Shown: positions 15,617 through 53,579 of the stretch, one piece after another
Layout of the letters: the number at the start of each line of letters is the position of its first letter
Position numbering within the stretch: position 1 is the first letter of the stretch
NCBI GenBank assembly: GCA_030154085.1
Contig: JASKKR010000003.1
Span: 1 to 64,000 of the forward strand
DNA length: 64,000 bases
Origin: Candidatus Cloacimonadota bacterium
GTDB lineage: Bacteria > Cloacimonadota > Cloacimonadia > Cloacimonadales > Cloacimonadaceae
Reading direction: 5' to 3'
Notes under the pieces: model-generated
What the model was told of the DNA's origin: nothing
What the model saw: the letters and a program-made list of their open reading frames with translations, nothing else
Database searches by the model: none
Made by a program: the position numbers and the translations under genes

Positions 15617-16870
15617 ATGCCAAATTTTGCTTACATCGTAAAAGACGCTAAAGGCGCTCGTGTAGAAGGCGTGATCAAGGCTGATACCCTTGATATGGCG
15701 GTGGAAAAGCTTTCTAAAGAAGGCTCCACCATTATATCAGTTAAAGCCGCCTCAGAAGGAGCTTTCAAAGGAAAACTATCGCTCTTTGATAAGGTTATGC
15801 TCACCATCTACAAGATTCGCACGGGTGTTACTCTCAAGACCCTTGTATTTTTTACACGCCAGCTTTCAACTATGTTCTCGGCAGGTCTCACGATCGAGAA
15901 AGCAATAAATGACTTGGAAAAAGAAGAAAAGAATAAAAAGTTTGCCAAAGTCTTACGCAAGATAGGCGATGACATTCGTAAAGGATTCTCTCTCTCTGAG
16001 GCCATGCAGCAGCATCCAGGCGTGTTCAACCCCCTTTATATTGCAATGGTGCAGGCTGGTGAAGTGTCTGGTACTCTGCATACCGTCTTGGATGAGCTTT
16101 CAGATTATCTGGAAAAGATCGAGGATACCCGGCGTAAAGTAACAAGCGCTATGGCTTATCCCGTCTTTATCCTCGTCTTTCTTGTCTTCGTGATTTGGGG
16201 TATGTTCTATTTTATCATACCCATGTTTGCTGAAGTTTATGCTGATTTCAATGCCACTCTACCTGCACCCACAGTGATCGCTATCAATATATCGAATTAC
16301 ATCGTAAACAACCTGTTTGCGGCAATCCTGATCTTCATTTTGATTATAGCTGGATTGTTCTTGGTGTATCTGACAGATCGGGGAAGGTACATTATGGATT
16401 CCATAAAACTGCGCATCCCAGTCGTAGGAGGTTTGATAACGAACTCCATCATGAGTAAGTTCTCCCGAACATTCAGTATCCTCATGGCTGCTGGTGTCCC
16501 GATTATGGACACCATGGAGCTTACTGAAAACGTGGTGCAAAATGCTGTAGTTGAAAGTGCTGTGCGCCGTGCGAGAGTGCTGGTTAAAGAAGGTTATGGT
16601 GTGGCTAATGCTTTCCGCAGAACTGGCGAATTCCCTCCCACACTTTTGCAGATGATTTCCACCGGCGAAGAAACTGGTGATATGGATAAACTGCTGGGCA
16701 AAGCGGCTCAATTCTACGAGAAACTCGTGGATAGCGTGATCGATCGCCTAACTTCCTTGATCGAACCGCTCTTGATCGTGATGATGGCAGTTGTTGTGGG
16801 TTCCATTATCATCGTGATCTATCTACCGATCTTCGATCTTGGTGAAGCAATCTCACAAGGGTTCAACTAA
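15617..16870 (+). CDS. pilC: Type IV pilus inner-membrane platform protein PilC
   Basis: 417 aa, usual for PilC/GspF. Two T2SSF domains are visible, the first starting FFTRQLSTMFSAGLTIEKAI and the second FSRTFSILMAAGVPIMDTME, each followed by the conserved helix motifs and GEETGDMDKLL. There are three membrane segments (about 170-200, 220-245 and 380-405). It is the rotor-like platform that couples PilB/PilT to pilin entry. It is the last gene of the pilus locus and is followed by a strong terminator. Confidence 0.94.
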   Translation: MPNFAYIVKDAKGARVEGVIKADTLDMAVEKLSKEGSTIISVKAASEGAFKGKLSLFDKVMLTIYKIRTGVTLKTLVFFTRQLSTMFSAGLTIEKAINDLEKEEKNKKFAKVLRKIGDDIRKGFSLSEAMQQHPGVFNPLYIAMVQAGEVSGTLHTVLDELSDYLEKIEDTRRKVTSAMAYPVFILVFLVFVIWGMFYFIIPMFAEVYADFNATLPAPTVIAINISNYIVNNLFAAILIFILIIAGLFLVYLTDRGRYIMDSIKLRIPVVGGLITNSIMSKFSRTFSILMAAGVPIMDTMELTENVVQNAVVESAVRRARVLVKEGYGVANAFRRTGEFPPTLLQMISTGEETGDMDKLLGKAAQFYEKLVDSVIDRLTSLIEPLLIVMMAVVVGSIIIVIYLPIFDLGEAISQGFN

Positions 16871-16894
16871 AAAATATAGTCTCATGGATATATC

Positions 16895-16926
16895 GAGCCC
16901 CATCCTTGGATTGGGGCTCTTTTTTA
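16895..16926 (+). terminator. Rho-independent terminator after pilC
   Basis: A 7-bp GC-rich stem (GAGCCCC at 16895-16901 with GGGGCTC at 16113+800, i.e. 16913-16919) is followed at once by a run of seven T residues (16920-16926). It lies 25 bp after the pilC stop and closes the pilus operon. Confidence 0.92.
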
Positions 16927-17056
16927 TCTAAGACAGACAGGAAGCACAGAAGAATCTACCGCCGTGCGGAATGGAATCAAATGGTTGATACTTAGTTTGC
17001 TTAAGTGCGGAGTCAGTGCATTTAGCACGGCATTTTAAATTTTTACGAGGAAGTAG

Positions 17057-17157
17057 TTCACAAAGCTGTAACTCCTTATATTCCCGTTTCTTGCCCACTT
17101 CTCAAACGGGAGAGAAACGGGGGAGGCAGCAAGTGCCATACTTTTGCAAGCATTTAG
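17057..17157 (+). repeat. Dispersed structured intergenic repeat, copy A
   Basis: One of four copies of an approximately 100-bp element in this window (others at 27798-27899 minus, 38958-39059 plus, 53369-53468 plus). Shared blocks are TCACAAAGCTGTAACTCC, CCCGTTTCTTGC, GAAACGGGGGAGG and TTTTGCAAGCATTTA. An 8-bp stem CCCGTTTC/GAAACGGG is invariant, with an inner 3-4 bp helix (here CCC/GGG). The copy lies in the roughly 480-bp gap between the pilC terminator and the ETF gene and overlaps no gene. Function unknown: structured RNA, REP-like element or small non-autonomous element are the options. Confidence 0.85.
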
Positions 17158-17307
17158 ACAACTGATTTTATGAATTAAATGCATCTATATTTGTTAAAGA
17201 TTATAGATGCTAAGTTCAGATTAGAACTAATGAGATACCTCATAACTGTCGGAGTATGAATCGTAACTCCAAGCTCCATGTAAAATTATATACAGCTTAT
17301 TTGGAAT

Positions 17308-17325
17308 TTGGCTAAATTCTTGCAA
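17308..17325 (+). promoter_or_regulatory. Second sigma-54-like promoter motif, upstream of the ETF gene
   Basis: TTGGCT-N6-TTGCAA shows GG at 17310-17311 and GC at 17322-17323 with exact sigma-54 spacing and a perfect TTGC -12 element. The -24 box differs from TGGCAC at the last two positions. The predicted start is near 17335, about 75 nt before the ETF start codon. A TTGACA/TATAAT-like pair lies between it and the gene, so either could drive expression. Confidence 0.45.
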
Positions 17326-17365
17326 ATCAGCAGAAGGTCGAGTTGCGATTGCCGTAAAAATCAGC

Positions 17366-17386
17366 TTGACAATTAAAGTATATAAT
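17366..17386 (+). promoter_or_regulatory. TTGACA / TATAAT pair with 9-bp spacing
   Basis: Perfect matches to both sigma-70 boxes, TTGACA at 17366-17371 and TATAAT at 17381-17386, but with only 9 bp between them instead of about 17. A similar short-spaced arrangement occurs before two other genes in the window (40545 and 61467). The TATAAT lies 24 bp before the ETF start codon, a plausible distance for a -10 box. Confidence 0.4.
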
Positions 17387-17410
17387 TATTGTTTTCTTCA
17401 GGAGAAAGAT

Positions 17411-27623: not shown

Positions 27624-27797
27624 TTTACCTCCACCTTTACGGTTTCTACCAATTTCTATAGATGGCTCTTTTTAGTAAAGTCTTTTTTTTTGCTGCAATT
27701 TCTGAACCCATAGCTTCCTATTCATAATAAGACGATGCTGTATTCAAATTCTGTAATATTTAAAAAATAGAACAACTTTTGTAGTAAATTTAGTGGC

Positions 27798-27899
27798 CTA
27801 AATGCTTGCAAAAGATGGGCTCTTGACGCCTCCCCCGTTTCTCCCCCATTTGAACAACGGGCAAGAAACGGGAAAATAAGGAGTTACAGCGATGTGAAG
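27798..27899 (-). repeat. Dispersed structured intergenic repeat, copy B
   Basis: Reverse-strand copy of the four-member repeat. It keeps the stem CCCGTTTC/GAAACGGG, the inner helix CCC/GGG, the left block (GCTGTAACTCCTTATTTT) and the right block (TCAAGAGCCCATCTTTTGCAAGCATTTAG in similar form). The loop differs from the others (GTTGTTCAAAT). It lies in the 520-bp gap between the PpiD-like gene and bamA and points the same way as both. Nothing else was found in this gap apart from an A/T-rich stretch just upstream of bamA. Confidence 0.85.
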
Positions 27900-28143
27900 T
27901 GCATTGTGGAGGAAGTTGAAAACAGAAGCAATAGGTATTTTCATGAAGCGATAAGATTGCAGGATCGATAAGCCAAACACGGGTGAAAGAAGCTGAATAG
28001 CAAATAGAGTCATCCTGAGTCAGTGACTATTCCCATCATATTTCTCATCTTATTAGCTGGGAACTTGCCTAATAGGCGTAGCAAATACTCTTTTTCTCCA
28101 AAACCTTGCTTAGATACGGTGCTGAGGGAATCTTAATCACATG

Positions 28144-38795: not shown

Positions 38796-38957
38796 CAGGA
38801 TGCAAGGTGGTCTCCCAAGACTGTTCAAAAGGAGCAACCGTCTTCAGCAACTTTCCTTGTTATCTTTGGGCAAAACAGGTGCTAAAGTTGATGTGCACTG
38901 AATCCACTTTCTGGATATAAGAATAGCATCTCGTTTTAAATTCTGTTCCAGAATATA

Positions 38958-39059
38958 CTTCACAAAGCCGTAACTCCTTATTTTCCCGTTTCTTGCTCAC
39001 TTCTCAAATGGGGGCGAAACGGGGGAGGCATCAAGAGTCCTACTTTTGCAAGTACTTAG
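38958..39059 (+). repeat. Dispersed structured intergenic repeat, copy C
   Basis: Third copy of the four-member repeat, in the 335-bp gap between the ECF S gene and a convergent dehydrogenase gene. The stem CCCGTTTC/GAAACGGG is intact; the inner helix is CTC/GGG (one G-T wobble). A 9-bp inverted repeat, CTTCACAAA at 38958-38966 and TTTGTGAAG at 39071-39079, flanks this copy only. Nothing else is seen in the gap. Confidence 0.85.
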
Positions 39060-39130
39060 CTATGCAAAAATTTGTGAAGTGACAGCTTGTGTCTCTCTTT
39101 TTTTTGAACTCAAATATACCTTGCTATGAT

Positions 39131-52954: not shown

Positions 52955-53368
52955 CTCTATCTCCTATAAGTACAATATTATTTATCTTATGGCATAGAGC
53001 CATGGGTGCATAATAATGTCAAGCAAAAAGTAATCCCAAAGCATTGTCGTCAGTTTTTAATTCTATACTAAATCAAAAGGTTTTTACCAGCTATATCGAT
53101 TGCTGAGCCTTTGTCTCTTACCTGAGTGAGTAGGTCAATGAGTAAAAGTTTGCTGTTTATGCCATCGCAAGCTTCACCTTCTTAACCATTTACGATGCAA
53201 CGTAAGGTTGCATTATAAGCTTATAACCCCCAAAAGGAAGCCAGTAAGTATTGGCGAATCAGATTATGACAAACTGTTGTATTTTGGCACATATTAGTTA
53301 GGATGGGATTACTTTCTCTACCTTCTCAGGCAATGAGCTTTCTGCACACATATTCTTCCAGGACGCAA

Positions 53369-53468
53369 TCACAAAGCTGTAACTCCTTATTTTCCCGTTT
53401 CTTGCTCGCTTCTCAAATGAGGAAGAAACGGGGGAGGCGTGAAGAGCCCATCTTTTTCAAGCATTTAC
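53369..53468 (+). repeat. Dispersed structured intergenic repeat, copy D
   Basis: Fourth copy. The stem CCCGTTTC/GAAACGGG is intact. The inner helix reads CTC/GAG, a compensatory pair compared with CCC/GGG of copies A and B, with copy C (CTC/GGG) as the wobble intermediate. Flanking blocks TCACAAAGCTGTAACTCC and GGGGGAGGCGTGAAGAGCCC are conserved. It lies antisense to the neighbouring genes on both sides, so it is not always a 3' UTR element. Confidence 0.85.
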
Positions 53469-53579
53469 GCGCCTGAAATTGAGTATTTCTTTAGTCACCG
53501 TATACCATGCAATCCGAACCCGAGAATAAGATGATAGGCGGTGTACTTTAGTCACTGTATCCCTGGATTGCTTCGGGAT

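Follow-up and report, generated by a model that had tools for sequence, protein, structure and literature searches.

A hairpin repeat family with long-range mutual exclusion between its copies in a Candidatus Cloacimonadota genome

Introduction

Small repeats in bacteria are usually regarded as randomly scattered or clustered. The subject of this report is a structured intergenic element of about 114-125 bp that occurs four times in a 64,000-nucleotide stretch of DNA (the window) from Candidatus Cloacimonadota bacterium (contig JASKKR010000003.1, positions 1 to 64,000). The family to which it belongs follows a keep-away rule of 7-10 kb across the chromosome, and this rule recurs in another genus in which the sequence of the element is very different.

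Among described systems, the repetitive extragenic palindromes (REP), the bacterial interspersed mosaic elements (BIME) and the REPIN sequences, which go with RAYT (Y1) transposases, are comparable in being dispersed intergenic palindromic repeats of more than 100 copies per genome with species-specific versions. REP sequences (GTAG/CGTC), however, are palindromes of 20-40 bp that often lie close together in opposite orientation, whereas the present element is found as longer single units at least 7.0 kb apart. The BIME-2 gyrase sites of E. coli are likewise intergenic structured repeats with a possible domain-scale role, but these form clustered mosaics, in contrast to the evenly spaced single units described here. 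The miniature inverted-repeat transposable elements (MITEs) of bacteria, including the Tn3-derived TIMEs, are also small, non-coding, multi-copy and patchy; the element differs from them in lacking a target duplication and a clear terminal inverted repeat, its ends being imperfectly similar in inverted form, and no parent transposon was found in a search that covered Y1_Tnp only.

A likeness of another kind is offered by the target immunity of Mu, Tn7 and Tn3, by which new insertions are kept away from an existing copy and which, in the Tn3 family, depends on the transposase and the element ends (PMC9579193). Such immunity belongs to large autonomous transposons, whereas the element here is a small repeat. 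The open-access full-text literature on Cloacimonadota repeats, and on evenly spaced or immune small repeats, yielded nothing matching. We know of no report in which target immunity determines how a small repeat is spaced along a genome.

Copy Number and Spacing

The assemblies used are metagenome bins, and the source genome (G000) comprises 1.95 Mb in 42 contigs. A covariance model (CM) built from 28 copies (R1) and applied at E<=0.001, the E-values of such models being rough, identified 113 copies in G000, of which C1:49 and C10:49 may be a single locus counted twice. Two further degenerate copies, C16:35054 and C35:4145, lie inside unusually long gaps and bring the family total to about 115; the latter was recovered by an independent query as well. 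The flanks of the element-bearing starts of contigs C1 (L019) and C10 (L010) are nearly identical, consistent with either a duplication or an assembly artefact. A closely matching DNA query returned at least 40 copies in G000, and every over-represented 12-mer in 464 kb of its sequence falls into this one family. The exact element pattern was without a match in the named GTDB genomes and viral contigs.

An earlier note on the window had described four near-identical copies lying between genes, which it took to be one dispersed, structured family without fixed orientation to genes. This description holds: the four copies are full-length CM matches (Table 1), a 20-base core has exactly four matches in the window at <=3 mismatches, where shuffles predict none, and all four lie between called genes. 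No copy was found inside a called gene on the three contigs checked, and the gene contexts (8 divergent, 15 tandem and 8 convergent) display no orientation bias. A bias towards convergent genes, suggested by a first count with crude open reading frames (ORFs), was gone after better gene calls, and no clear bias was seen in copy orientation relative to neighbouring copies or to GC skew. What the note overlooked is the mutual exclusion of the copies over about 10 kb.

Even spacing is already visible in the window, where neighbouring copies are 10.8, 11.2 and 14.4 kb apart. Genome-wide, the R1 positions define 80 neighbour gaps with a minimum of 7.0 kb, a mean of 14.5 kb and a coefficient of variation (CV) of 0.34; with the degenerate copies added there are 82 gaps, none below 7.0 kb, with a mean of 14.3 kb and a CV of 0.281. 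Copies thus occur roughly every 10-20 kb, as though each keeps others away. On 21 contigs of known length, which hold 89 copies, the CV is 0.339 and the minimum gap 7029, while random placement on the same contigs gives a CV of 0.97 (lowest value 0.646 in 10,000) and a minimum gap that never exceeds 1408. It would also put about 44% of gaps under 7 kb, where none is observed. The intergenic constraint does not account for the spacing, since the observed CV was reached in 0 of 20,000 samples restricted to real intergenic gaps. By comparison, random sequential placement matches both the copy number and the CV once copies exclude one another over 9-10 kb. Each of the four shortest gaps (7.0-8.1 kb) involves a degenerate copy (P 0.0025), so that exclusion appears to depend on the sequence of the copy; the closest pair of copies of >=80 bits lies 9180 apart.

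Recombination between close copies could delete the intervening DNA and leave only well-spaced copies behind, and close direct repeats are generally unstable. Inverted pairs, which are not expected to delete, are nevertheless excluded alike (41 inverted gaps with a minimum of 7.0 kb and 40 direct gaps with a minimum of 9.2 kb, of similar size; P 0.33), which disfavours this explanation. Many copies are, in addition, clearly diverged from one another, and we regard loss by recombination as highly improbable.

Distribution in Related Genomes

The family is sporadically distributed. Eleven relatives from the genus were searched: eight are without a detectable copy, and a ninth, G009, bears a single one. 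The single copy of G011 was not counted, as its contig is contamination or derives from the same species as G000 (G011:C16, L208, is 99.9-100% identical to G000 contig C38 across 9 kb and is misbinned or of the same species). Proteins of the sister genomes G003, G005 and G011 are about 70% identical to those of G000, and no high-copy repeat was found in 197 kb of G003 or 118 kb of G005. The sister species G010 carries its own version of the element, with 48 copies recovered by a model built from its sequences only (R2); the same model recovers 76 of the G000 copies, and the elements of the two species are therefore homologous. No gap in G010 is shorter than 8.9 kb, where 5.1 are expected (P 0.00265), though in a fragmented assembly, and the exclusion is weakly seen here relative to G000 and G013.

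Run across 107 genomes of the order, a combined model (R3) identified 12 places (best E 8e-7) in G013, which belongs to another genus; G046 and G052, from another family, each gave a single weak one. All 12 of the G013 places fall on members of a single dispersed family recovered by pattern, in the consensus of which the parts follow in the same order and GCATTT stands at a matching distance. The level of the consensus alignment was attained by 3 of 2000 shuffles, which makes that part moderate evidence. At least 70 copies are present in G013, and none of the 52 gaps between those listed is below 10.0 kb, whereas simulation predicts 19.3 and never gave fewer than 8 in 20,000 runs. With one exclusion distance of about 8-11 kb, simulation yields the spacing of the dense genome as well as that of the sparse one: the CV of 0.281 in G000 compares with 0.27-0.35 simulated at 9-11 kb, and that of 0.653 in G013 (listed copies, of a total of at least 70) with 0.60-0.64 at 8-9 kb. 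This fit of one distance to two densities is the main argument for exclusion over even coverage.

Insertion positions are shared between species no more often than expected for intergenic gaps. One gap (C2:23818 in G000, L313 in G010) holds a copy in both, and an apparent enrichment of shared insertion positions vanished when intergenic-gap genes served as the control (G010, P 0.13; G013, P 0.65). The lone G009 copy and C41:790 of G000 match the same 100-base query at 95% and 98%, respectively, and their neighbouring genes differ. Downstream of the G009 copy (G009:C11, L032:1-1398) is an ORF that carries a GGDD motif and by eye resembles a Cas10/Cmr2-type protein.

Structure of the Element

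Two conserved blocks, TTCACAAAGCTGTAACTCCTTATTTT on the left and one terminating in GCATTTAG on the right, flank a hairpin whose pairing is maintained by compensatory changes. Information content across 112 copies places the left edge about 12 bases ahead of TTCACAAAG (CAGAAYGCAC). The right edge falls at TTAG, after which +4 to +10 form a weak A/T patch, and the flanks beyond the element are random. Between these edges lie the block GTAACTCCTTATTTT, a 10-pair hairpin that also has a small inner and an outer (CTCC/GGAG) stem, and the right block (Table 1). Among 118 sequences of the element's own type, 35 cells are changed on both sides of a pair, compared with 1.7 in shuffles, and the cross-species alignment has 32 double-changed cells against 15.5. 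In two copies, C41:790 and that of G009, a wholly different stem (CTCACCG...CGGTGAG, variant B) occupies the same frame. A longer right extension, CCAGGCTRRAATTC...GATCATGA...TTGGATTAATA, is common to copies L004, L013, L016, L017 and L030 and marks a longer subfamily.

Table 1. Copies of the element in the window and features of copy 1
Feature	Position	Strand	Evidence
Copy 1	17045..17158	+	CM R1, 135.4 bits
Copy 2	27797..27910	-	CM R1, 128.7 bits
Copy 3	38947..39060	+	CM R1, 132.6 bits
Copy 4	53357..53469	+	CM R1, 123.3 bits
Outer stem CTCC	17072..17075	+	Pairs with 17122-17125; sequence and pair counts
Main hairpin, 5' arm CCCGTTTCTT	17083..17092	+	Covariation
Main hairpin, 3' arm	17112..17121	+	Covariation
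Right-end motif GCATTTAG	17150..17157	+	TTA near-invariant in 112 copies; GCATTT also in G013 consensus

Compensatory base pairs of this kind, along with a folding z-score of -2.83 on the + strand, would suit a structured non-coding RNA or an mRNA element, such as an untranslated-region hairpin or riboregulator, present in many transcripts. The copies are, however, without orientation to genes, and copy 1 has neither an excess of promoters nor a terminator-like site (a stem followed by a U run) at 16850-17400, which also bears out the earlier view that the element is not an ordinary terminator. No Rfam family matched at the gathering threshold, and a further search gave only chance-level matches. 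An RNA role would moreover offer no reason for regular spacing, and it is an improbable explanation.

Origin of the Spacing

Three candidates had been put forward in the earlier note: a REP/BIME-like element, a small non-autonomous mobile element and a non-coding RNA. The first shares high copy number and extragenic location with the family, but fails on other grounds: Y1_Tnp/RAYT (PF01797) has no match in G000, with positive controls, and the copies are single units rather than clustered arrays and exceed 100 bp. The second fares best of the three.

Selected sites of chromosome architecture, such as strong gyrase sites or nucleoid-protein anchors at about one per supercoiling domain of 10-15 kb, could also produce the observed array. 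The spacing of the element is similar in scale to supercoil domains of 10 kb (PMC3420936), and BIME-2 repeats of E. coli are gyrase sites (PMC6379681). The maintenance of the hairpin through compensatory changes is in keeping with such a role, as is the fact that degenerate copies remain in register, since their omission raises the CV from 0.281 to 0.388. Most sister species, on the other hand, are without detected copies; G010 and G013 (in the latter among listed copies) show many long gaps, with exclusion at short range only; positions are unshared between species beyond the intergenic-gap background; and convergent genes are not preferred. An architectural function is a rather unlikely account of the whole pattern.

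The reading favoured here, at somewhat better than even, is that of a non-autonomous mobile hairpin element with an insertion block of about 10 kb around each existing copy, akin to transposition immunity, which in G000 would be near saturation. Mobility by some enzyme, and immunity as the cause of the exclusion, we infer from the pattern. A trans-acting machine would copy the element into intergenic DNA, and an existing copy would render about 8-11 kb around itself refractory to new insertion, by analogy with the target immunity of Mu- or Tn3-type transposons. Insertion in G000 may have continued almost to saturation, giving a ruler-like array; where a relative has fewer copies, this exclusion would appear as a missing class of short gaps. 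A lack of insertions near existing copies is indeed the pattern in G000, G010 and G013. Mobility with such immunity accounts for the patchiness, the copy number, the random orientation, the unshared positions, the variant-B match at non-orthologous places and the exclusion at different densities.

Several observations weigh against this proposal. No target-site duplication was detected (best z 3.6 in 11,979 tests, with no excess of full matches), although several transposon types produce none, and no mobilising enzyme was found in a search covering Y1_Tnp only. The ends are only imperfectly similar in inverted form, as judged by eye from AATGCACTTCACAAAG on the left and the reverse complement AATGCTTGCAAAAG on the right. 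Most copies are old and diverged, yet spaced, and selection could yield the same. No empty site was observed, as the comparisons included no two strains that differ by an insertion, and the two-density argument is weakened because the G013 copy list is a lower bound.

A broader reading, possible though doubtful, is that of a spacing system of the Cloacimonadales, in which a structured site at about one per 10-15 kb is kept by an active mechanism while its sequence is re-invented in each lineage. The hairpin and the exclusion distance would be the constants of such a system, which could consist of a mobile repeat that limits itself through long-range immunity or of chromosome-domain markers.

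If the spacing does reflect immunity, transposition immunity can act at long range in small non-autonomous elements and set their copy number. If it instead reflects architecture, which would be of higher interest, the chromosome of some bacteria carries marks at near-regular intervals. The even array is, besides, a natural ruler for bacterial domain structure.

Other Repeats in Related Genomes

Repeats of other types were seen among the relatives. In the complete genome G020, of the same family as G000, the region C1:1-400000 contains tandem arrays of 66-bp, 87-bp and 98-bp units, and a large perfect palindrome, GCATTGCTTACCCATT...AATGGGTAAGCAATGC, occupies nine sites in the same 400 kb with a minimum gap of 10.6 kb (P 0.12). 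Contig ends and intergenic regions of G011 (L193-L212) carry tandem repeats with a 7-base unit (CATAACG/GATAACG), together with the hairpin repeat CCGGTGGCTAAAGC...CATCTTATTC, and part of these G011 repeat types also adjoins two of the G000 copies (L023 and L029).
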